Assembly: GCF_000751775.1 (NCBI RefSeq)
Contig: NZ_CCRF01000045.1
Location: forward strand, 62,001-126,000
DNA: 64,000 nt
Reading direction: 5' to 3'
Source: Caldibacillus thermoamylovorans
GTDB taxonomy: Bacteria > Bacillota > Bacilli > Bacillales > Caldibacillaceae
Both the position numbers and the translations under genes were made by a program. A model generated the notes under the pieces. The model saw nothing but the letters and a program-made list of their open reading frames with translations. It did no database searches and had not been told where the DNA came from. Below are positions 3,832-63,811 of this stretch, one piece after another (positions within the stretch are counted from its first letter, which is position 1; each line of letters starts with the position of its first letter).

Positions 3832-4785
3832 ATGAAAATGGTAAAAGTTGTTTTTATGGGTACACCAGATTTTTCCGTACCGATTCTCAACCGGCTATTA
3901 ACAGACGGCTATGAAGTGATTGGTGTTGTAACCCAACCGGATCGTCCTGTTGGTCGTAAAAAAACGATGACACCGCCACCGGTTAAGATTGCGGCAGAAC
4001 AACACGGCATTCCTGTTTTTCAACCGGAAAAACTGCGGGATGAAGCATCACTTCAGGCTATATTAAATTTAAATCCGGATTTGGTCATTACTGCGGCATA
4101 TGGTCAAATTTTACCAAAAAAATTGCTTGATGCTCCAACATACGGTTGTATCAATGTCCATGCTTCCTTACTGCCCGAGTTAAGAGGCGGAGCCCCCATC
4201 CATTATGCCATTATTCAGGGAAAAGAAAAGACAGGGATTACGATTATGTATATGGCTGAAAAATTAGATGCCGGCGACATTTTAGCGCAAACGGTAGTAC
4301 CCATTGCTGAAAGAGACACGGTTGGTACCCTTCATAATAAACTTAGTGAAGCAGGGGCCGATTTATTAAGTGTTACGTTACCGAAACTGTTAAACGGAGA
4401 GATTACACCAATCAAACAAGATGATCGTGAAGCCACTTTTGCCCCAAACATAAAACATGAGCAGGAAAAAATTGATTGGCATAAGACCGGAGAAGAAATT
4501 TATAATCACATTCGCGGTCTCAACCCGTGGCCGGTTGCGTATACGACATTAGACGGGAAACCGATTAAAATTTGGTGGGGCGAAAAACAGCCGCGTCCAA
4601 AGATCGAACAGCCCGGGACTATTGTTGCCGTTGAAAAGGACGGATTTATCGTGGCAACCGGAAATTCAACCGCTATTAAAATTACTGAACTACAACCTGC
4701 GGGAAAAAAACGAATGCCGGCCGCACAATTTTTACTTGGAAAACCTGATTTAGAAAGAAGTATACTGGGGGTAGAAGATGAGTAA
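3832..4785 (+). CDS. fmt: methionyl-tRNA formyltransferase
   Basis: Formylates the amino group of initiator Met-tRNA using 10-formyl-tetrahydrofolate, the step before bacterial translation initiation. The catalytic set Asn108, His110 and Asp146 lies in the [16 protein letters not shown] and KLDAGD motifs, followed by a C-terminal tRNA-binding OB-type domain (roughly 205-317). AAAGG stands 5 bases before the ATG at 3832; an in-frame ATG at 3838 is a possible alternative. The last 8 bases overlap rsmB. The usual neighbour def (peptide deformylase) is not in this window. Confidence 0.96.
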
Positions 4786-6118
4786 AAAGGTAAGGGAAGC
4801 GGCTCTGGATATCCTGGAATTTGTTGAAAAAAACGGAGCTTACAGCAATCTTGTTTTAAACAATACGATCAATAAAAACAAATATTCCAGTATGGATGCC
4901 GCCTTATTAACAGAACTTTGTTACGGAACATTGCAGCGGCAAATAACCCTTGATTTTTTTCTCAATCCTTTTATTAAAAAACAAAAGCGGATTGATTCCT
5001 GGGTACGACAATTGTTACGATTATCTGTCTATCAAATGGTCTATCTTGATAAAATACCGGATCATGCCATTATTAATGAAGCTGTTCAAATTGCTAAGAA
5101 GCGGGGGAATAAAGGTATTAGCGGCTTTGTTAACGGAGTCTTACGATCTGTTCAAAGAGAAGGTGTTCCTCCTCTTGCCGCCATTCAAGATTCAATCGAA
5201 CGTCTTTCAATTGAAACAAGTCATCCGAAATGGCTGGTTGAGCGATGGGTTCAACAATATGGTTTTGAAAAAACAAAGCAAATGTGTGAAGAAAATGTAC
5301 GGCCGGCAAAACAAACCGCTCGCATCAATGAGTGGAAAACGAATATTGATTATGTGATTGAATCCCTTGGTAAGGAAGGAATTTCGGTTGAAAAAAGCTC
5401 TTCTATTCCGGTGGCGGTAAAAGCAGATAAAGGTAATTTCGTTCACTCCCTCGCATTTCAAAACGGTTTACTAACGATGCAAGATGAAAGTTCCATGATT
5501 GTTGCGTATGTGGTGGCACCGGAAAAAGGAGAAAAAATCCTAGATGCTTGTGCTGCTCCCGGTGGAAAGACGACACATATGGCTGAAAGAATGGAAAATA
5601 CCGGAGAAATTATCGCCTTAGATCTGCATGAGCATAAAGTGAAACTGATTAATCAAAATGCGGCAAGACTTGGATTAACGAATATTCGAGCAAAGCAAAC
5701 GGACAGTCGCCAAATGGGGACCCATTTTGAGAAAGAATCCTTTGATCGTATATTAGTTGATGCGCCTTGTTCAGGATTCGGAGTACTGAAAAGAAAACCG
5801 GATGTGAAATATACAAAAACTGAAAAAGATATTAAAAATTTAACAAAACTGCAATTGGAGTTATTAAACCAAGCTGCCCCTCTTGTCAAACCGGGAGGAA
5901 TATTGGTATACAGTACATGTACAGTTGACCAAGATGAAAATCAGAGCGTAACGGAAAAATTTTTAGCCGAACATCCGGATTTTGCAGGCGATGAAACAAT
6001 TTACGAGCGGGTTCCGCAAGCGATTAGACCGTTTGTACACCATCATGAGATCGAAATTTTGCCACAGTATTTAAAAAGTGATGGTTTTTATATTGCATGC
6101 TTTCAAAAGAAGGTGTAA
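4778..6118 (+). CDS. rsmB: 16S rRNA m5C967 methyltransferase RsmB
   Basis: AdoMet-dependent methyltransferase that makes m5C967 (E. coli numbering) in 16S rRNA. Residues 1-140 form a NusB-like RNA-binding domain. The Rossmann-fold catalytic part has the AdoMet loop [10 protein letters not shown] (256-265), and two catalytic cysteines lie in APCSG (Cys331) and STCT (Cys381). Length (446) is typical. The ATG overlaps the end of fmt, which suggests coupled translation. In B. subtilis rlmN follows; here only 67 bases separate rsmB from prpC and no rlmN remnant is seen. Confidence 0.95.
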
Positions 6119-6185
6119 CTTTTGAAATAGAAGGTATAAAATGAAGATAAATAAACTGGTTAAGGCATATGAACGAGGTGAAATT

Positions 6186-6965
6186 ATGAAGGTTGTCCAA
6201 CGTACGGATCGAGGAAAAGTAAGAAATCACAATGAAGATCACGTAGGTATTTTTACAAATCATTCAGGACATCTGTTGGCGGTGGTTGCTGATGGCATGG
6301 GTGGCCATTTAGCCGGAGATGTTGCTAGTAAAATGACAATTGAGTTAATTCAAGACTTGTGGGACAACAATGCGCCGAATACAGAAGTCCCGGACCAAAC
6401 GGAAATGTGGTTCCAACAAGCCATTCAAGAGATCAACGAAAAAATATACACCTATGCCAACGAAAATCCTGAATGTAAAGGAATGGGCACTACTTTAGTT
6501 GCCGCTTTATGCACAAATAAATTTGTCTCTATCGCACATATTGGTGATAGCCGCTGTTACATATTAAATGAACATGGATTTCGTCAATTAACTGATGATC
6601 ACTCATTAGTCAATGAACTGGTCAAAAGTGGACAAATTTCAAAAGAAGATGCTGAACACCATCCACGGAAAAATGTATTACTAAGGGCATTGGGGACAGA
6701 ACCATCTGTTACCATTGACACAATTACCGTTGATTTTGATATAGGTGATTATTTGATTCTTTGTACGGATGGTTTGTCTAATAAAGTATCTGATAAAGAA
6801 ATTGCCGAAATTCTTAGTTTGGATGAAAAATTGGAAGATAAGGCAGATCAATTGATTCAACTGGCCAATGATAATGGGGGCGAAGATAATATAACACTGG
6901 CAATCATACATAACAGCGAATGCGAGAAAGCAGGTGATAATTCATGCTCATTGGCAAGCGAATAA
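6186..6965 (+). CDS. prpC: PP2C-type Ser/Thr protein phosphatase PrpC
   Basis: Metal-dependent phosphatase that opposes the kinase PrkC encoded next. PP2C motifs occur in order: RNHNED near the N-terminus, VADGMGGH, HIGDSR, TDDHS, CTDGLSNKV and the closing GGEDNIT. The aspartates that hold the two metal ions are all present. The ATG at 6186 is chosen because GAGGTG lies just upstream and because family members start with the equivalent of MKVVQRTDRGKVRNHNED; an earlier ATG at 6141 lacks a good ribosome site. It overlaps prkC by 22 bases, so kinase and phosphatase are made together. Confidence 0.95.
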   Translation: MKVVQRTDRGKVRNHNEDHVGIFTNHSGHLLAVVADGMGGHLAGDVASKMTIELIQDLWDNNAPNTEVPDQTEMWFQQAIQEINEKIYTYANENPECKGMGTTLVAALCTNKFVSIAHIGDSRCYILNEHGFRQLTDDHSLVNELVKSGQISKEDAEHHPRKNVLLRALGTEPSVTIDTITVDFDIGDYLILCTDGLSNKVSDKEIAEILSLDEKLEDKADQLIQLANDNGGEDNITLAIIHNSECEKAGDNSCSLASE

Positions 6966-8896
6966 ACGATCGATATAAGATCATCGAATATATTGGCGGG
7001 GGAGGTATGGCCAACGTATATCTTGCTCGTGATATGATTCTCGAGAGGGATGTAGCCGTCAAAGTTTTACGACTCGATTTAGCCAATGATGATGAACTTA
7101 TTCGCCGCTTTCATCGTGAAGCACAATCTGCCACAAGTCTTGTTCATCCGAATATCGTTAATATTTATGATGTCGGTGAAGAAGACAACATTTATTATAT
7201 TGTCATGGAGTATGTTGATGGAGAAACCTTAAAACAATATATCCAAAATCATTTTCCCATACCCATTGAAAAGGTCATAGATATTACACTGCAAATCACA
7301 TCGGCAATTAGTCATGCACATCAAAATAATATTATCCATCGAGATATTAAACCGCAAAATATTTTGATCGATAAAAAAGGAAATGTGAAAATAACGGATT
7401 TTGGTATTGCAGTTGCCTTGACATCAACAACGATTACCCAAACGAATTCCGTGTTGGGAACTGTTCATTATATCTCTCCTGAGCAAGCTCGGGGCGGAGT
7501 AGCAACAAAAAAATCTGATATTTACTCTTTGGGCATCGTTTTATTTGAGTTATTAACAGGCAGACTTCCATTCTCAGGTGAATCGGCAGTTTCCATCGCA
7601 CTGAAACATTTGCAAACTGAAACTCCTCATCCGCGAAGTTGGAATCCGTCCATTCCACAATCTGTTGAAAATATTATTTTGAAGGCGACGGCCAAAGATC
7701 CGTTTTACCGATATGACGACATTGAAGAGTTTAAAGCTGATTTACTTACTTGCCTTGACCCGTCACGTATCAACGAGCCTCCATTTGTTTTACCTGTAGA
7801 TGAAGAAGCAACAAAAGTAATACCGGTTATAAAAGAACCAAAAGAATCAAAGGAAGAGCTTAAGATTGATAATGATTCGGGAAAAGATAAAGGAAAGAAA
7901 GATAAAAAGAAAAAAAAGGGAAATAAACAAAAACGAAAAAAATGGCCGTTTGTATTAATTTTCACTTCCCTACTTATTATTTTAATGGGTATTCTTGTAT
8001 TAACAACAGATGTTTTTGGTGCGAAAGACGTAAAAGTTCCCGATGTTCGCAATATGAAATTAGATGATGCCATTAAAGAACTGGAAAAAGCCAATTTTGT
8101 TATCGGTGATACGATTGAAAAGCCGGATGATAAGATTCGGGAAAATTACGTCTTAAAAACAAATCCAAAAGCAGGGAGTATGAAAGCGGAAGGCAGCAAA
8201 ATTACGATTTATGTCAGTACCGGGAAAGAAACAATAGAAATGGAAGATTATCGCGGAGAACAATTTGACGAGGTTCAAGCATTATTAACTGAACAAGAGT
8301 TAAATTTTAAAAGCATCGAGGTAAATGAAGAATACAGTGACAAGGAAGCAGGAATCATTCTTGATCAAAATCCCGCACCCGGTAAAAAGGTTGTTCCGGA
8401 AGATACCGATTTAGTTTTCACTGTAAGTAAAGGTGATCAAAGCATTTCACTAAAAGATTTAACGAATTATTCAACAGAAGATTTAAATTATTATATGAAA
8501 GCGACCGGTATCAATATAACAACGACAGAACAATACCATGATACGATTCCTAAAGGTAACGTGATTAGTCAAGACGTAAAACCCGGAACTTCTTTAAAAA
8601 AGGGTGCCACTGTCCATGTTGTTGTTTCAAAAGGAAAAGAAGAAAAACCGCCTAAAACGGTGACGATCGATATTTCCGTTGTTTATACAGGGAATCCGGA
8701 AGAAAAACAAGTACAACACGTGCAAATTTTTATAGATGATATGAATCATGACTTTTCAGTACCTTATGAAACATTTGATATGACAGAAACAACGAGGAAA
8801 AGATTTGATCTCGTGATTCAACCAAATTCAAGCGGCAGATATAAAGTTGTTATCGATAACCAAGTTGTTCAAGATCAAGTCGTTCCATATGAATAA
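6944..8896 (+). CDS. prkC: PASTA-domain Ser/Thr protein kinase PrkC
   Basis: Transmembrane kinase that senses muropeptides and related cell-wall signals, including during germination of spores in Bacillus. The cytosolic kinase domain (about 1-275) has the glycine loop IGGGGMANVY, Lys40, catalytic HRDIKPQN with Asp134, DFG and SPEQARG. A lysine-rich juxtamembrane linker is followed by one membrane helix near 333-355 and three extracellular PASTA repeats (about 360-575). A further beta-rich tail reaches residue 650. The start aligns with Bacillus MLIGKRI and has AGGTGA upstream. It lies in the prpC-prkC-rsgA run. Confidence 0.96.
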   Translation: MLIGKRINDRYKIIEYIGGGGMANVYLARDMILERDVAVKVLRLDLANDDELIRRFHREAQSATSLVHPNIVNIYDVGEEDNIYYIVMEYVDGETLKQYIQNHFPIPIEKVIDITLQITSAISHAHQNNIIHRDIKPQNILIDKKGNVKITDFGIAVALTSTTITQTNSVLGTVHYISPEQARGGVATKKSDIYSLGIVLFELLTGRLPFSGESAVSIALKHLQTETPHPRSWNPSIPQSVENIILKATAKDPFYRYDDIEEFKADLLTCLDPSRINEPPFVLPVDEEATKVIPVIKEPKESKEELKIDNDSGKDKGKKDKKKKKGNKQKRKKWPFVLIFTSLLIILMGILVLTTDVFGAKDVKVPDVRNMKLDDAIKELEKANFVIGDTIEKPDDKIRENYVLKTNPKAGSMKAEGSKITIYVSTGKETIEMEDYRGEQFDEVQALLTEQELNFKSIEVNEEYSDKEAGIILDQNPAPGKKVVPEDTDLVFTVSKGDQSISLKDLTNYSTEDLNYYMKATGINITTTEQYHDTIPKGNVISQDVKPGTSLKKGATVHVVVSKGKEEKPPKTVTIDISVVYTGNPEEKQVQHVQIFIDDMNHDFSVPYETFDMTETTRKRFDLVIQPNSSGRYKVVIDNQVVQDQVVPYE

Positions 8897-32956: not shown

Positions 32957-33844
32957 ATGTCGATCCAATGGTTTCCAGGCCATATGGCAAAAGCAAGAAG
33001 AGAAGTAACCGAAAAATTGAAATTAATCGATATTGTATATGAATTGATAGATGCACGCATACCTTTGTCTTCACGCAATCCAATGATTGATGAAATTATT
33101 AAACAGAAACCTAGAATTGTCTTATTAAATAAAGCAGATATGGCTGATGCAAAAAAAACGAAAGAATGGGTTTCCTATTTTCAAAAACAAGGCGTTGTCG
33201 CCATTCCAATTAATTCTCAATCGGGAGCAGGAATGGCAGCAGTCGTAACAACGACAAAACAAATCGTTAGTGAAAAGTTTGATAAAATGCGGGCAAAAGG
33301 AATAAAACCGCGTGCCATTAGAGCGATGGTCGTGGGAATACCAAATTCCGGTAAATCAACGTTAATCAATCGTCTGGCCAAAAAAAACATCGCCAAAACC
33401 GGAAATACTCCCGGTGTAACGAAAGCGCAGCAATGGATTAAAGTTGGAAAGGAAATCGAACTATTGGATACGCCCGGAATCCTCTGGCCAAAATTTGAAG
33501 ATCAACAGGTGGGCTTTAACCTTGCTTTGACAGGGGCCATTAAAGATACGATTTTAAACTTACAAGATGTTGCCGTTTTTGCTCTTCGCTTTCTGGAAAA
33601 AGAGTATCCGGATCGTTTAATGGAACGATATGGGTTTCATCATATTCCCGAAGAAATTGTTGAGATATTTGATGCCATCGGGACAAGAAGGGGATGCTTG
33701 GCGGGTGGAGGCATGGTTGATTATGATAAAACCGCAGAGGTGATTATCCGTGATATCCGTTCACTGAAACTTGGCCGCCTCACTTTCGAAATGCCACCTG
33801 AACAAATAAAAAAAGAGGGCCTGTCAAATGAAACAAACAATTAA
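32957..33844 (+). CDS. rbgA: ribosome biogenesis GTPase RbgA (YlqF)
   Basis: Circularly permuted GTPase needed for late 50S assembly. It opens with [16 protein letters not shown], has G4 LLNKAD, then G1 [12 protein letters not shown] and G3 DTPG, and a C-terminal helical domain. The ATG at 32957 follows GGAGGGTGAG; an ATG at 32933 upstream is rejected as it precedes the ribosome site. It overlaps rnhB by 17 bases. Confidence 0.96.
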
Positions 33845-34610
33845 AGAAATCGAAATGATTTTGCAATCTGTAACAGAACCAGATGACCCTTTTGTTAAAA
33901 AATGTCAGCAAGATGAACGGAAAGGTGTCCAAGCACTTCTCCAACGTTGGAAGAAAAAACAAGAAGAGTTAATGGCAGAGAAGCGGCGTTTTGAAAAAAT
34001 GATGGTATATGAAAAAGAAGCACAAAAGCAAGGTTTCCAATATGTTGCCGGAATTGATGAAGTAGGTCGAGGTCCGTTGGCAGGTCCGGTTGTTGCTGCG
34101 GCTGTTATTTTACCGGAAAATATATTTATTTCCGGAATTAATGATTCAAAAAAACTATCAAGCAAAAAACGTGAACAGTTATATCAAGAGATTAAAAACG
34201 AGGCGTTAGCTATCGGTATCGGTGTGGTTGGAGCCGATGTAATTGACGAAATCAATATTTATCAAGCGACAAAAAAAGCAATGAATATAGCAATTAACCA
34301 ATTATCAATTTTTCCTGACTTTCTTTTAATTGATGCAATGAAGATTGATACGCCTATTACCCAGCGATCATTAATAAAAGGTGATTCATTATCGGTGTCC
34401 ATCGCCAGTGCATCAATTATTGCAAAAGTTTATCGTGATCGGCTAATGATGGAATACAGTAAAAAGTATCCCGAGTATCAGTTTGAAAAAAATGCCGGTT
34501 ACGGAACCCGTGAACATATTCAAGCAATCCGTAAATTTGGTCCGACCCCCATTCATCGAAAGACATTCGCTCCGATAAAAGAATATATACATAACGAAAA
34601 TGAAAAATAA
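33828..34610 (+). CDS. rnhB: ribonuclease HII
   Basis: Removes ribonucleotides embedded in DNA. Catalytic Asp77 and Glu78 lie in [14 protein letters not shown], and further acidic residues in LIDAMK. The extra N-terminal region of about 70 residues is usual in Bacillus RNase HII. Its start lies inside rbgA, indicating coupling. Confidence 0.95.
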
Positions 34611-34633
34611 AGAAATTGATCGGGATGATGCAA

Positions 34634-35887
34634 ATGAACATCGATTCGATGCAATCAATTATACAATCAAACAAAAGATCGCAACTTGACCGAACTCCAG
34701 TTTTTAAACCGGGGCAAATTTTTTGTGGCAAAGTCCGGTATATTGATCCTTCTAATCATGCCATTATTCAAATTGGCGGAGAAAAAATAATCGCCAACAT
34801 CGAGGCTCCCCTCGACGTCCGAAAAGATTATTGGTTTGAAGTGGTTAAAACAGACGGAACCATTCAATTAAAAGTTTTGGATAATATCTCAAATAATGAT
34901 GCGTTTTTATCATTTTTACATTTACCGAAAACAAAATTGATGAATGAATTTTTACAACAATGGAAACAAATGAATTTTTCGTTTGAGAGAAATGTTCTAA
35001 CAAAAGTTGCCGATTGGATAAATCAAGTCAATGATATTCAAAAAGTTCTTGAGATCGTCCAGCAGATGGATAAACATAATTTACCGATGACGGATGTTGT
35101 ATTTCAAAGCTTATTATCCATGAAAAGCAGTCCCCCTTTATCGGTTCTTATTGAAAATTTGTATCAACAACTGAATCAAGATAGCCAGGCAAAGAACCTG
35201 CCCATTTTCCAAACCTTACAGCATTTATTGGGTAAAGATGATCCGAATATTGCTTTCTCTTTAAATGGGTCAGACGGGAATAAAATCCATCAACTTTTCC
35301 GCCAATTAAACACTTTGCTCGGCATGAACTATGAAGCATTAATAAATGGGGCAGAAATGAAAAATTTGCCATTAAAAGGTCAATTAATCCAACTATTGAC
35401 GATGGACGGGCTGCCTTTACCGGTAAAAAAAGAAGCGGAACAATTATTTCACAAAATTATAGGTACACAATTAGTCAATATCGAAAGCAACGGATTACTA
35501 CAAATGACTCTATCTCTTCCGCTTCCACTGGCTGAAAAAGTGATCGATGCGAATATCCATTGGCGTGGAAAAAAAACAGAAGATGGTAAATTAGATCCGA
35601 ATTTTTGCCTGATTATTTTTGATCTTCAAATGCCCAGTCTGGGAAAAATTGTGTCTCGCATGCAAGTCCAAAATAGAACAATCAACCTTTATATTTTTTG
35701 CGAAGATGACAAGATTGAACATCTTAGTCAACCATTTGTTGATTTATTAAAGGAAAACTTGAAAAAGCTAAACTATCAGCTCGCTGCAATTAAATTTGAA
35801 AAAATCGATGCCAACCGGCAAACAAATTCGGGGGAACAAAATCTTATTCCACCTGTGCAATCGGGAAGCTTGGATGTGAGAATATGA
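34634..35887 (+). CDS. ylqG: YlqG, large protein with FliK-like C-terminal region
   Basis: Poorly characterised protein of about 417 residues, conserved between rnhB and ylqH in Bacillus. No signal peptide or membrane helix is seen. An N-terminal beta-rich part (about 20-85, KPGQIFCGKVRYID) is followed by a glutamine-rich helical middle. Near the C-terminus MPSLGKIVSRMQVQNRTINLYIF and the helix DLLKENLKKLNYQ resemble the hook-length control domain of FliK (compare LKPEHLGTLKIELIQ at the end of fliK here). The start is uncertain: ATG at 34625, 34628 or 34634, or TTG 34616; 34634 best fits the weak GGGATGAT. It overlaps ylqH by 4 bases. Confidence 0.75.
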   Translation: MNIDSMQSIIQSNKRSQLDRTPVFKPGQIFCGKVRYIDPSNHAIIQIGGEKIIANIEAPLDVRKDYWFEVVKTDGTIQLKVLDNISNNDAFLSFLHLPKTKLMNEFLQQWKQMNFSFERNVLTKVADWINQVNDIQKVLEIVQQMDKHNLPMTDVVFQSLLSMKSSPPLSVLIENLYQQLNQDSQAKNLPIFQTLQHLLGKDDPNIAFSLNGSDGNKIHQLFRQLNTLLGMNYEALINGAEMKNLPLKGQLIQLLTMDGLPLPVKKEAEQLFHKIIGTQLVNIESNGLLQMTLSLPLPLAEKVIDANIHWRGKKTEDGKLDPNFCLIIFDLQMPSLGKIVSRMQVQNRTINLYIFCEDDKIEHLSQPFVDLLKENLKKLNYQLAAIKFEKIDANRQTNSGEQNLIPPVQSGSLDVRI

Positions 35888-36165
35888 AAAAAGAAGATGA
35901 ACGAAAAGAAGCAGTGGTTTTAAAATATGATGAAGCAGCAAATATTGCTCCTGTTGTGAAAGCAAAAGGGAGGGGTAAAATTGCCGAAAATATTATCCGT
36001 GAAGCCGCAAAACATAACATTCCCATTCACGAAGATGCAGCACTTGTAGAATTATTAGGGAAAATCAATATAAATGAAACAATTCCCGAAGAATTATATA
36101 AAGCTGTTGCAGAAGTACTCGCCTTTATTTATCAAATTGATAGGGTTCGAGAACGTGGAAAGTAG
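35884..36165 (+). CDS. ylqH: YlqH, FlhB C-terminal-domain-like protein
   Basis: A 93-residue protein that matches the cytoplasmic C-terminal part of FlhB: VLKYDEAANIAPVVKAKGRG aligns with the VALKYDE...VAKG segment of flhB in this window, and both end with the PEE-x-x-KAVAEVLAF/YVY/IY pattern. It lacks the membrane domain and the NPTH cleavage loop, so it corresponds to the FlhB fragment left after autocleavage. It is translated with ylqG by a 4-base overlap. Similar proteins (FlhX in other bacteria) can partly replace the FlhB C-terminal domain; a role here is inferred. Confidence 0.85.
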   Translation: MKKEDERKEAVVLKYDEAANIAPVVKAKGRGKIAENIIREAAKHNIPIHEDAALVELLGKININETIPEELYKAVAEVLAFIYQIDRVRERGK

Positions 36166-36299
36166 TCATGATCAAAAGTTTTAGCCATGAAAAAAGAAAC
36201 TTAAAGAAAGATATTTTTGCATAAAACTAGACAATATTTTCTGCATTATATTACAATTGGTATGCAACCTTATTTTTTTGTTTGACAGGAGGATGGAGA

Positions 36300-37463
36300 A
36301 TGAATATTCATGAATACCAAGGAAAAGAACTTCTCAGAAAGTATGGAGTTTCTGTTCCGGATGGTAAAGTTGCATTTACAGTTGATGAAGCAGTTCAAGC
36401 TGCAAAAGAATTGAACAGTAATGTCGTTGTTGTAAAAGCGCAAATTCATGCCGGTGGAAGGGGAAAAGCAGGCGGTGTGAAAATTGCGAAAAATTTAGAT
36501 GAAGTTCGTACATATGCGGGTGAGTTGCTGGGGAAAACCCTTGTTACCCATCAAACGGGTCCTGAGGGGAAGGAAGTTAAACGCTTACTCATTGAAAAGG
36601 GTTGCGATATCAAAAAAGAATATTATATTGGTATTGTTTTAGACCGTGCCACTTCAAGAGTGACTTTAATGGCATCCAGTGAAGGCGGTATGGAAATTGA
36701 AGAAGTAGCTGAAAAAACACCAGAGAAAATATTTAAAGAAACCATTGACCCGCTTATTGGTCTTGCACCATTCCAAGCAAGAAGGATTGCCTTTAATATT
36801 GGCATTCCGAAAGAGCTCGTCAATCAAGCTGTCAAATTTATGACCGGATTATACACGGTATTTGTAGAAAAAGATTGTTCCATTGCTGAAATCAATCCGC
36901 TTGTTATAACAGGCGACGGGAAGGTAATGGCATTAGATGCAAAATTGAATTTTGACAGCAATGCATTGTATCGTCATCCGGATATCCTCGAATACCGCGA
37001 TCTTGACGAAGAGGATCCAAAAGAGATTGAAGCTTCAAAATATGACTTAAGCTATATAAAATTAAACGGAAATATTGGATGTATGGTTAATGGAGCAGGT
37101 CTCGCCATGGCAACAATGGATATCATTAAATATTACGGCGGGGAACCGGCTAACTTCCTTGATGTCGGTGGCGGTGCAACGGCTGAGAAAGTTACGGAAG
37201 CATTTAAAATCATTTTGTCTGATAATAATGTCAAAGGAATTTTTGTCAATATTTTCGGCGGAATTATGAAATGCGATGTTATTGCAACCGGTGTCGTAGA
37301 AGCAGCAAAACAAATCGGTTTATCTGTACCGTTAGTCGTACGGTTGGAAGGAACAAATGTAGAATTAGGAAAAAATATTTTACATGAATCCGGCTTGAAT
37401 ATTGTTCCTGCCGAATCGATGGCAGATGGTGCACAAAAAATCGTGGATTTAGTTGGTAAATGA
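36300..37463 (+). CDS. sucC: succinyl-CoA synthetase (ADP-forming), beta subunit
   Basis: Beta subunit of the TCA-cycle ligase that makes ATP or GTP from succinyl-CoA. An N-terminal ATP-grasp fold starts [17 protein letters not shown], with [15 protein letters not shown] and the C-terminal CoA-ligase part NFLDVGGGA and [11 protein letters not shown]. The ATG at 36300 follows GGAGGATGG; an in-frame ATG at 36282 is rejected. It pairs with sucD after 57 bases. Confidence 0.97.
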
Positions 37464-46366: not shown

Positions 46367-46768
46367 ATGAAAATATTTTCTGATACAATTTCTATTTTGG
46401 GTCAAGCACTGGATTACTCAACAACAAAACAAAAAGTTATTTCGCAAAATATTGCCAATGTTGACACGCCAAATTATAAGGCACAAGAGGTATTACCTTT
46501 TAAAACCGTATTAAAAAATGAGCTAAAAAACACAAATCACTTATCTGCACAAATAACAAACAATAAACATATACCCTTCCCACCTTCAGAAAATGGAACT
46601 GTAACAATTGTAAAAAATAATATCCAATATAATGAAAGCGGCAATAGTGTCGATGTCGATCAAGAAATGACAAAATTGGCGGAAAACCAAATTTATTACA
46701 ATGCATTAATCGATAGAATAAGCGGGAAGTTTCAAACGCTCCAATCGGTTATTAAGGGAGGAAAATAA
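46367..46768 (+). CDS. flgB: flagellar basal-body rod protein FlgB
   Basis: Proximal rod subunit that spans the peptidoglycan, exported by the flagellar type III system. The N-terminal IANVDTPNYKAQ motif and a C-terminal heptad-like helix are typical of the rod-hook family. Its 133 residues are normal. CAAGGAG precedes the ATG. First gene of the fla/che operon. Confidence 0.94.
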   Translation: MKIFSDTISILGQALDYSTTKQKVISQNIANVDTPNYKAQEVLPFKTVLKNELKNTNHLSAQITNNKHIPFPPSENGTVTIVKNNIQYNESGNSVDVDQEMTKLAENQIYYNALIDRISGKFQTLQSVIKGGK

Positions 46769-53377: not shown

Positions 53378-53407
53378 AACTATGTAAACTTGAAAGGAGG
53401 TGAAAAC

Positions 53408-54751
53408 ATGATCAGTGTCTTAGGCAATTTGCAAGTTTTATTAACAAATCCGCAACAAAATCATGACCCGCTAGTTAGACAAGAGGGACAAGTCGGCAGT
53501 TTTGAACAGTTACTGGCTTTGTTTGCAAATCATTTACTTGAGGAAAATGCCAATCAAGGAAAGAATGTTAACCAAGGAAAGATGGTTTCATTTGAAGGAC
53601 TTGGCCAGAGGGAAGCAAGTGAAGATACGTCGATGAACTTGGAAGAGCTACTGGAATTTACTGGTATTGATGCAGATGATTTATTGACTTCAATCCTGAA
53701 TATCCTCGGTTTATTACTTAAAGAAACGAAGGATAATGGAACAGAAGACGAACAGATTCAAGAACAAATTCAACAACTTTTGGAAGAGGTAAAAAAAGAT
53801 CAAGGAAATCCTCAAGGTTTTGTGAATCTCTTACAATTAATGAACCAATTTGAGTTTTCTCAAGTTATCAGCTCGGAACAAAGTCAAGATTTTACAAATG
53901 TTGTTAAGACTGCCGTTGTTTTATATCGATTGTTAAATGATAATAAAAAACCGGGTTTCCTTACACAAGAGCAGGAAAAAATTATAAAAACCTTTTATCA
54001 AAATTTACAAGCAAATATGAAAAAATCGGATGTTATGCAATCGGCTTTTGCCAAGTTGGATACGGATAAAGGGGTTGAAGATCTTTCTGTGTTTAGAAGT
54101 AAGCAGCCCTATCTAATGATTCGGACCGTTGATATGAAGAGTTTCGGCGAAGCACCATCATCGCATATGATCAATAACAATGAAGTGATTGATGTCAGTG
54201 AACTGCCAAAAATTGGATCAGATGAAACCGGTCAAAATCAACAATTATCAGGAAAGCCAATAGAAGCGGGGACTGTCCAAACTCCTAACACAGGTGGTTC
54301 GCTTCAATTATTGGAAGGGAACAAGCCGGTCACGATGGAACGTTTTATAAAAGATTTTGAAACGATTTTAGCCAAAAGTAAATTTTACCAAAACGGTCAA
54401 GTACAAAAGTTGACTATCCAGTTAAAGCCGGAACATTTAGGCACATTAAAAATTGAACTCATTCAACAGCATAATGAACTTGTTGCAAAAATTATTTCGT
54501 CAACGACAAGTGCTAGAGAGTTATTAGAGTCGCAATCTCAAGCATTAAAACAAGCACTCGTGCAGCAAAATATCCCAATTAATCGGATTGATTTTCTTGA
54601 TGAAACCCAGCAGGAAGGATTCAATCATCAACAACCTAACCAAAACAACGATCATCCTGGATATGATCAGCATGAAGAAAAAGAAAATGAACATAATAAT
54701 GAAAATTTCATGGAAACTTTTAAGGCGACACTATTAAACTATGAAATTTAG
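53408..54751 (+). CDS. fliK: flagellar hook-length control protein FliK
   Basis: Secreted molecular ruler that tells FlhB to switch from hook to filament export. The long low-complexity glutamine- and asparagine-rich N-terminal part is followed by the hook-length control domain with IQLKPEHLGTLKIELIQ and LLESQSQALKQAL, ending in a hydrophilic HN-rich tail. The ATG at 53408 follows AAAGGAGGTG; an in-frame ATG at 53390 is rejected. Length 447. Confidence 0.92.
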   Translation: MISVLGNLQVLLTNPQQNHDPLVRQEGQVGSFEQLLALFANHLLEENANQGKNVNQGKMVSFEGLGQREASEDTSMNLEELLEFTGIDADDLLTSILNILGLLLKETKDNGTEDEQIQEQIQQLLEEVKKDQGNPQGFVNLLQLMNQFEFSQVISSEQSQDFTNVVKTAVVLYRLLNDNKKPGFLTQEQEKIIKTFYQNLQANMKKSDVMQSAFAKLDTDKGVEDLSVFRSKQPYLMIRTVDMKSFGEAPSSHMINNNEVIDVSELPKIGSDETGQNQQLSGKPIEAGTVQTPNTGGSLQLLEGNKPVTMERFIKDFETILAKSKFYQNGQVQKLTIQLKPEHLGTLKIELIQQHNELVAKIISSTTSARELLESQSQALKQALVQQNIPINRIDFLDETQQEGFNHQQPNQNNDHPGYDQHEEKENEHNNENFMETFKATLLNYEI

Positions 54752-62658: not shown

Positions 62659-62734
62659 CAAATAACTAATAGGAAACGGGCACAGTTTTTCACTTGTGTT
62701 TGGTCTGCTTGTTTTCATCAAAGGAAGATATCGA

Positions 62735-63811
62735 ATGTTAAAAGTGGATTTGCAATTTTTTGCGGAAGAAAAAACGGAAAAAGCGACCCCGAAAAAGCGT
62801 CAAGATGTACGAAAAAAGGGTCAGACCGCGAAAAGTCAAGATGTCAATACAGCTATTATTTTACTGGCAGTCTTTTTTGTTCTTTTATTTACAGGTTCAA
62901 ATATGCTGGAAGGTTTGAATCGCATTTTTTATCAAACTTTTGAAGAATATGTGTTTCAAGAAGTGACAACGAATACGATTGAAACAATAACGCTGGATTT
63001 GTTTCAGGAAATTTTCATGCTGGTAGGTCCGGTTATGTTGGCCGGATTTATAGCCGCATTACTGGCCAATTATATTCAAGTTGGGTTTATTAGTACAACA
63101 GAACCTTTGAAAATGAAGTTGGAAAAAATCGATCCGATCAAAGGATTTAAAAGAATTATTTCATTACGGGCTTTGGTTGAATTATTGAAATCAATTTTAA
63201 AAGTAGTCGTCATCGGTGCAATTGCTTTTGCTTTTTTATGGACTCATTTGAAGGAAATTCTTGGCCTTATTTTTAAATCGGCAGGAGCAAGTTTATCGGT
63301 TGTCGGTTCCATTACGGTAAAAATGGGTTTGTTTGCAACAGGGGGCCTGTTATTTTTGGCATTGCTGGATTATATGTATCAAAAATATGATTTCGAAAAA
63401 AGTATCCGTATGTCAAAACAAGATATTAAAGAAGAGTTTAAGAATACAGAAGGGGATCCGTTAATTAAGTCAAAAAGAAGACAGCGGCAAAGAGAAATTG
63501 CCTTTCACCGAATGATGCAGGAAATTCCGACCGCCGATGTCGTCATCACGAATCCTACCCACTATGCTGTTGCACTGAAATATGATGAGAGTAAAATGGA
63601 TGCACCTTTTGTAGTTGCCAAAGGTGTGGACTATTTGGCACAAAAAATAAAATATGTTGCAAAAGAAAACGGGGTCGTCATGATTGAAAACCGGCCATTA
63701 GCCAGAAGTCTTTATCACCAAACTGAAATTGGTCAGGCGATACCGGAAGAGTTTTTTAAAGCAGTTGCTGAAGTATTAGCATATGTATACCGGTTAAAAA
63801 AGAAAGTATAA
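62735..63811 (+). CDS. flhB: flagellar export switch protein FlhB
   Basis: Export-gate protein that changes substrate specificity from hook to filament after autocleavage. The N-terminal EKTEKATPKKRQDVRKKGQ, four membrane helices and the cleavage loop NPTH (Asn273-His276) are present. The C-terminal domain resembles ylqH. The ATG at 62735 follows AAAGGAAG; an in-frame start at 62696 is rejected. Length 358. Confidence 0.96.
   Translation: MLKVDLQFFAEEKTEKATPKKRQDVRKKGQTAKSQDVNTAIILLAVFFVLLFTGSNMLEGLNRIFYQTFEEYVFQEVTTNTIETITLDLFQEIFMLVGPVMLAGFIAALLANYIQVGFISTTEPLKMKLEKIDPIKGFKRIISLRALVELLKSILKVVVIGAIAFAFLWTHLKEILGLIFKSAGASLSVVGSITVKMGLFATGGLLFLALLDYMYQKYDFEKSIRMSKQDIKEEFKNTEGDPLIKSKRRQRQREIAFHRMMQEIPTADVVITNPTHYAVALKYDESKMDAPFVVAKGVDYLAQKIKYVAKENGVVMIENRPLARSLYHQTEIGQAIPEEFFKAVAEVLAYVYRLKKKV

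Follow-up and report, generated by a model that had tools for sequence, protein, structure and literature searches.

YlqG and YlqH (FlhX): a co-inherited pair of FliK- and FlhB-related proteins encoded outside the flagellar operon

The substrate specificity switch formed by FliK and FlhB is the textbook checkpoint in the assembly of the flagellum and of the injectisome. In a stretch of 64,000 nucleotides of Caldibacillus thermoamylovorans DNA (assembly GCF_000751775.1, contig NZ_CCRF01000045.1, positions 62,001 to 126,000; referred to here as the window), two overlapping genes, ylqG and ylqH, raise the question of whether a second copy of this FliK-FlhB interaction is encoded away from the flagellar genes, as suggested by an original prediction made from the sequence. 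The comparisons described here indicate that the pair is an old and widespread two-gene unit, which probably tunes the flagellar export switch. Many bacteria carry such a second copy of exactly two switch parts, those of FliK and of the FlhB tail, with a different head domain. The pair is widespread and hardly studied: a functional study of it was not found in the literature searched (most subscription papers lie outside it), where the names ylqG and ylqH are met in passing.

The ylqG gene (34634..35887, plus strand, stop codon included) codes for a protein of 417 residues when read from the ATG at 34634, the mechanically defined open reading frame starting at a TTG at 34616 and having 423 codons. 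The ylqH gene (35884..36165, plus strand), also referred to as FlhX, codes for 93 residues. The ylqG stop codon and the ylqH start codon overlap by four nucleotides, ATGA (35884..35887, plus strand), which bears out the coupling of the two genes that had been noticed. The pair is flanked by rnhB and sucC. For the region between 30 and 64 kb of the window, the gene order, which we take from the B. subtilis order to be trmD-rplS-lepB-ylqF-rnhB-ylqG-ylqH-sucC-sucD-dprA-topA-xerC-hslVU-codY and then flgB, fits the translations of the open reading frames. The flagellar operon starts with flgB at 46367, about 10 kb downstream of the pair, such that the pair is indeed located outside this operon, with housekeeping genes around it. 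The canonical fliK, used for comparison, is found inside the operon (53390..54751, plus strand) and its product ends with LNYEI; the canonical flhB (62696..63811, plus strand) carries the NPTH motif. No injectisome genes were noticed among the open reading frames between 30 and 64 kb of the window, and scans of positions 33600-36500 gave no excess of promoters (8, compared with a shuffle mean of 9.8) or of terminators (2, compared with 2.4).

As judged from its sequence, YlqH is a stand-alone C-terminal domain of FlhB, without the membrane part and without the NPTH motif, and can be described as a 'pre-cleaved' FlhBCCD. It matches the Pfam family Bac_export_2 (PF01312) at profile positions 262-335 of 335 only (E 8.4e-19), and this range, together with its length of 93 residues, agrees with the original assignment of YlqH to the part of FlhB that follows NPTH. 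The match to the NCBIfam family flhB_rel (TIGR00789) has a score of 94 bits (E 4.2e-27), below the curated cut-off of 117 bits, which is strict, since a match over this cut-off is found in only 2 of 299 genomes of the phylum. In the alignment with the FlhB of the window (40% identity), in which the sequence patterns initially seen as common to both proteins are real, YlqH starts just ahead of the residues that come after NPTH, and does not itself have this autocleavage site. The NP.H motif is absent in all 65 FlhX sequences that were collected, whereas NPTH is present in 30 of 30 FlhB sequences. The FlhX sequences retain conserved sites of the FlhB tail, namely, Ala-Pro, Ile-Pro and Val-Ala-Glu; an aspartate is found in place of the asparagine of the FlhB 'EN', and the tyrosine of LARALY is missing. 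A FastTree tree separates 67 FlhX from 34 FlhB sequences with no misplaced tip (support 0.86), the tips including relatives that are 46-62% identical to YlqH in place of the window YlqH. Because there is no autocleavage site, YlqH resembles an already-cleaved tail and not a self-cleaving switch.

The C-terminal domain of YlqG is a diverged FliK switch domain that is nearly missed by Pfam, and YlqG is therefore better annotated as a FliK relative than as a hypothetical protein or a glycosyl transferase. The domain (35555..35806, plus strand; residues about 308-391) is defined by a weak Flg_hook match, by profile-profile alignment with FliK and by structural matches to PscP and FliKC. When considered as a single sequence, the resemblance to FliK that had been proposed is weak: the match to Flg_hook (PF02120) covers residues 329-394 with 14 bits (E 0.046), not reaching the cut-off of 29.8 bits, and the Flg_hook search of the source genome finds the canonical fliK only. 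Among the 31 sequences of the YlqG set (A2), consisting of the window and 30 of 32 Bacillales loci (the truncated L099 and the broken L101 were left out), 13 match Flg_hook at E<=1, the best at 2.1e-5; DUF6240 is matched by 6 of the 31, with a best E of 3.7e-4. When considered as a profile, the resemblance stands, as the hhalign comparison of the C-terminus of these 31 relatives with canonical FliK has a probability of 72, an E of 3.4e-5 and a score of 37.1, compared with 14.0 for the reversed profile and at most 18.7 among 30 profiles with shuffled columns.

This relationship is also seen via the FlhX partners of other Bacillota. For the partners, 27 of 30 loci were used, 4 of the order of the window and 23 others; left out were L063 and L065, which gave no FlhX start, and L051, which gave a wrong upstream open reading frame. 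YlqG aligns with the profile of the partners from other Bacillota up to the last residue (probability 98.7, E 2.5e-16, score 104.5, compared with 17.4 for the reversed control), and the partner profile aligns with canonical FliK with a probability of 97.3 and an E of 2.3e-11. As an independent step, 101 genomes of the phylum were searched with Flg_hook; once the best match of every genome is set aside, 37 matches are left, which are spread over 36 genomes (E 4.6e-13 to 7.9e-4). Of these secondary matches, 19 are above the Pfam cut-off, and at least 34 of the 37 are on the same strand as, and at most 1.2 kb from, an FlhX gene among the FlhX matches listed. A secondary match occurs in 36 of the 63 FlhX-positive genomes, as opposed to none of the 38 other genomes; for the 27 FlhX-positive genomes without it, including the source genome, either the partner is missed by Flg_hook or there is none. 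In a FastTree tree, 78 FlhX partners and 31 canonical FliK sequences are again separated with no misplaced tip (support 0.97).

The last five residues of YlqG provide a further point of comparison. The pentapeptide LDVRI (35870..35884, plus strand) follows the pattern h-[DN]-h-x-h, which is common to most canonical FliK C-termini and which was drawn up after the sequences had been seen. The form with aspartate ends all 31 YlqG sequences, as well as 4 of 4 further YlqG sequences of the same order, and is preceded by a variable linker. Elsewhere, 19 of 23 partners fit the pattern and 4 do not, and of the canonical FliK sequences, obtained from 29 of 30 loci (L132 gave none), 23 of 29 fit, with either D or N, and 6 do not. 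E. coli FliK ends with GVDIFA, and YlqG relatives often end with GVDIRI. Only 3 of 350 background C-termini fit, all three being YlqG copies or remnants. The pattern is not kept in the FlhX partners of Pseudomonas and Cupriavidus discussed below. In PMC13344023 the C-terminal five residues of FliK from Salmonella are proposed to act on FlhBCCD, the loss of FlhBCCD at the switch is reported as FliK-dependent, and FliK is argued to work via the removal of the FlhB tail. When compared at the level of sequence, YlqG keeps both FliK parts that are reported to act on FlhBCCD, namely, the switch domain and the last residues.

YlqG was described as ruler-like, and this does not agree with the structure predicted for its N-terminal region. 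In the AlphaFold2 model (calculated from the alignment of 31 sequences; mean pLDDT 83), a disordered start is followed by an OB/S1-like barrel (34697..34891, plus strand; residues about 22-86, block mean pLDDT 85-93), by helices (residues 88-280), by a β-rich domain with one helix (residues 283-390), which is the FliK-type switch domain (T3S4/Flg_hook), and by a disordered tail with the conserved pentapeptide. Residues 21-200 are predicted to be folded, with block mean pLDDT values of 85-96, whereas the N-terminus of a FliK-type ruler would be mostly unfolded, and structural comparison of the barrel part with VIA-align gives rows of mostly OB/S1-type folds (Z 5-5.9). The first 150 residues are conserved across the phylum, as found by hhalign (probability 99.3, E 2e-20, score 131, compared with at most 12.4 in 20 shuffles) when using 34 of 37 upstream open reading frames (L173, L174 and L183 were dropped), of which 32 fit the motif after it was loosened at its last residue. 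At the position of the FliK ruler, the prediction for YlqG therefore shows an OB-like barrel and a helical domain. For the C-terminal domain, the top Foldseek match is the switch domain of PscP (5CUK), which is weak (probability 1.00, E 0.022, TM 0.51 by target), and the probabilities for FliKC (2RRL) are 0.94 and 0.97; no Foldseek match of the YlqG models is found at E 0.001 or better. VIA-align superimposes the whole model on 2rrl with a Z of 5.4 (68 residues, rmsd 2.6), and the switch domain alone on 5cuk with a Z of 5.6 (72 residues, rmsd 2.6) and on 2rrl with a Z of 5.5 (81 residues, rmsd 4.5), with unrelated folds tied or higher, up to a Z of 6.8. The predicted fold is thus compatible with a FliK-type switch domain without being proof of it. 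A search of the solved structures with the YlqG sequence profile gave nine weak and apparently unrelated matches (best E 0.011).

The two genes are inherited as one unit. A search with the YlqG profile gave 32 Bacillales loci, at all of which FlhX comes directly after ylqG; the overlap of four nucleotides is present in 31 of these, the exception being L101, where ylqG is broken. At this locus (Bacillus coahuilensis m4-4, 5923-7608), ylqG is spread over three overlapping frames next to an intact FlhX gene, being either a pseudogene or the result of a sequencing error. Within 150 genomes of the order of the window, 135 have both genes, none has FlhX only, 2 have YlqG only and 13 have neither (Fisher p 6e-17, for genomes that are not phylogenetically independent). 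Both YlqG-only genomes (G078 and G147) hold decayed copies: in G078 both ylqG and FlhX are decayed and FlhB and FlhA are intact. In G147 (L146, 12822-13484), the ylqG remnant has the N-terminal barrel region and ends with LDLRI, without the switch domain, and no FlhX was seen downstream of this remnant; the genome still has FlhB and FlhA. In three other genomes (G031, G039 and G113), each with FlhA, sucC comes next after rnhB and the pair is not detected in the interval, and in six further FlhB-positive, FlhX-free genomes the rnhB-sucC stretch lies outside the 20 kb examined. The possibility that the pair is a relic or a chance arrangement was rejected, given that 135 of 150 genomes have retained the two genes jointly, that the gene order is the same at most other loci and that the pair also occurs in two Pseudomonadota records.

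Outside the order of the window, 40 further FlhX loci were considered, and a FliK-like partner, as detected with its own profile, is adjacent in 39 of them, being upstream in 35 and downstream in 4 (L173, L174, L184 and L186), with none at L183. Twelve of these loci (L148-L159) also contributed to the partner profile, and the partner is found at 27 of the 28 others; 16 of these 28 already had a second Flg_hook match, and 11 of the remaining 12 have the partner. The rnhB gene is upstream in 9 of the 40 loci. At three of the 40 (L173, L174 and L184), the order is flipped, with FlhX preceding the FliK-like gene, and the pair is directly upstream of flgB-flgC-fliE-fliF. Some loci and genomes show further variation: at L179 there are two FlhX genes (3951-4247 and 6675-6965) within about 3 kb, one of which follows a FliK-like open reading frame of more than 1300 residues, and four Bacillota genomes (G191, G198, G236 and G425) have two or more FlhX genes. 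In a Bacillus velezensis record (L192:1301-3004, NZ_CP083716.1), a YlqG relative is annotated as 'glycosyl transferase', apparently a misannotation; it ends with VDVKI, overlaps FlhX by four nucleotides and is located between rnhB and sucC.

The distribution of the pair follows that of the flagellar export genes. In the survey of 299 genomes of the phylum, FlhX is found in 184 of 250 FlhB-positive genomes and in 0 of 49 FlhB-negative ones (p 2e-24, for genomes that are not phylogenetically independent). The count of 184 consists of 183 genomes with two or more TIGR00789 matches and one (G175) in which FlhX is accompanied by a fragment of FlhB; no TIGR00789 match is found in the 49 FlhB-negative genomes, two of which have weak fragments (G176, 5.5e-4; G370, 4.5e-12). 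In the genome surveys (150, 299 and 397 genomes) a second match was counted as FlhX, and among those listed for the phylum, 145 of 150 are in frames shorter than 170 residues. The survey of the order covers 397 genomes: FlhB is present in 378, 18 have neither gene and one (G059) has FlhX without FlhB; the FlhX counts of this survey are to be read as 'at least', since at most 5 candidates per genome were scored, and 10 of the 18 genomes with neither gene are from one genus and so not independent. The G059 pair is at the usual site (L135, C28:38000-42679) on a contig that ends inside sucC. This genome, which lacks both FlhA and FlhB, is 99% complete with an estimated contamination of 7%; the pair may reflect a recent loss of flagellar genes or a foreign contig. 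The pair is thus rare, and not frequent as would have spoken against the original prediction, where flagellar export genes are lacking (0 of 49 genomes in the phylum; 1 of 19 in the order, G059). FlhX is not seen in 66 of the 250 FlhB-positive genomes of the phylum and in 35 of the 378 of the order, which have a single match, and therefore flagella do not need FlhX. Two genomes (G071 and G131) have unusually low-scoring FlhB and FlhA and neither FlhX nor YlqG, and other genomes of their family lack the export genes; these two possibly have a replaced, foreign flagellar system.

The pair is also found beyond the phylum. In a P. aeruginosa record, a protein annotated as 'FliK' (Flg_hook 67 bits) is encoded by a gene that FlhX overlaps by four nucleotides, beside ccm genes, and in Cupriavidus sp. 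EM10 an overlapping pair (four nucleotides; Flg_hook 59 bits and Bac_export_2 61 bits) is located beside fliD. These Pseudomonadota pairs came from a plasmid search whose matches were mostly FlhB and of which 5 of 38 records were examined; relatives of YlqG itself were not found on plasmids at E 1e-5 (tblastn). From the trees and the recurrence of the pair, ylqG and ylqH look like one old duplicated unit, although the domains are short and the pair may also have been transferred between phyla.

With somewhat better than even odds, ylqG and ylqH encode an accessory module for substrate switching at the flagellar type III export gate, for which we infer the following mechanism. YlqG and YlqH would be translated together and would bind each other as proposed for FliKC and FlhBCCD; FlhX would take the place of FlhBCCD in the gate, and YlqG would hold, deliver or remove FlhX. 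In this manner, a gate that has lost the original FlhB tail to ejection by FliK may be given a new one, or early (rod/hook) export may be held or restored. Because several flagellated lineages lack both genes, the pair would be an optional modulator. A bolder form of this proposal, which we regard as doubtful, is that of a reset unit, in which FlhX escorted by YlqG refills the tail site after the once-per-hook ejection by FliK, taken as irreversible, such that the switch would be reversible in much of Bacillota and some Pseudomonadota. If true, the gate would return to early export, for example for rebuilding a broken hook or rod, and the refilling of the emptied site by FlhX thus bears on the question of whether the switch is reversible. 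The weak Pfam and structural matches of YlqG, the 27 FlhX-positive genomes with no second Flg_hook match, the FlhB-positive genomes without FlhX and the departures from the terminal pattern count against the accessory module. The same holds for two further observations, namely, the location of the pair in a housekeeping neighbourhood (rplS-lepB-ylqF-rnhB-...-sucCD) and not in the flagellar operon, and its presence in G059 without FlhA and FlhB. Both would fit a function that is independent of the flagellum, in which the barrel, whose structural matches (residues 22-86) are mostly of the OB/S1 type, interacts with RNA or with a partner related to the ribosome, the FliK- and FlhB-like parts being a binding module reused near rplS-ylqF-rnhB. 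The housekeeping neighbours are shared in the order of the window, and rnhB recurs at the 9 of 40 loci noted above. However, the near absence of FlhX from FlhB-negative genomes of the phylum and of the order is not in agreement with this function, and elsewhere the pair is next to flgB (3 of 40 loci), fliD (Cupriavidus) or ccm (Pseudomonas), and therefore the rnhB neighbourhood is not the conserved feature; we consider a flagellum-independent role improbable, more so than the cytosolic role that is discussed next.

It is also conceivable, if unlikely, that FlhX never enters the gate and acts with YlqG as a decoy, titrating free FliK or substrates in the cytosol and thereby preventing early switching. 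The lack of the membrane part, the retained tail positions and the terminal FliK pentapeptide of YlqG are all compatible with this, and the housekeeping location could make the unit available before the flagellar genes are on. A decoy of FliK would not need its own, tightly co-inherited FliK-like partner gene, however, and Wand et al. 2006, by the title, reportedly present H. pylori HP1575 as a 'spare part' that allows export after deletion of the FlhB tail, which argues against a purely cytosolic function. The same title, together with the optional distribution, the overlap of four nucleotides and the tight co-inheritance, would suit a simpler scheme, to which we give the least credence, in which FlhX simply serves as an extra tail for FlhB, YlqG acts as the chaperone or stabiliser of FlhX, and no regulatory switch is involved; against this, YlqG retains the switch domain of FliK type and the terminal five residues, and does not have a generic chaperone fold.

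When the proposed accessory switch module is compared with the known systems, YlqG has in common with FliK (PF02120; 2RRL) the C-terminal switch domain, as detected by profile, and the terminal h-[DN]-h-x-h residues; it differs in its predicted OB-like barrel and helices in place of the ruler and in that its gene is paired with FlhX, away from the flagellar operon. FlhX has in common with FlhBCCD (PF01312) the conserved core, including Ala-Pro, Ile-Pro and Val-Ala-Glu; it differs from FlhB by the lack of the membrane part, of NPTH and of the LARALY tyrosine, and forms its own group in the tree. A stand-alone FlhB tail is also known from Helicobacter (HP1575, flhB2), Campylobacter (Cj0848c) and the flhX-fliK genes of Nitratiruptor, here likened by name and not by sequence. 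In the literature, HP1575 is listed as flhB2 (PMC2864241), flhX is given as Cj0848c in a list (PMC4894983), the Nitratiruptor flhX-fliK pair is located outside the main flagellar cluster (PMC9321776) and FlhX is described as absent from some actinobacterial classes (PMC10746217). The difference is in the YlqG partner, which is unrecognised by Pfam and misnamed in the B. velezensis record. In the injectisome, the corresponding proteins are PscP/YscP (5CUK), acting with PscU/YscU, and Foldseek ranks PscP first for the C-terminal domain of YlqG (E 0.022); the ylqG-ylqH pair, however, tracks FlhB, and the FlhB encoded in the window is flagellar.
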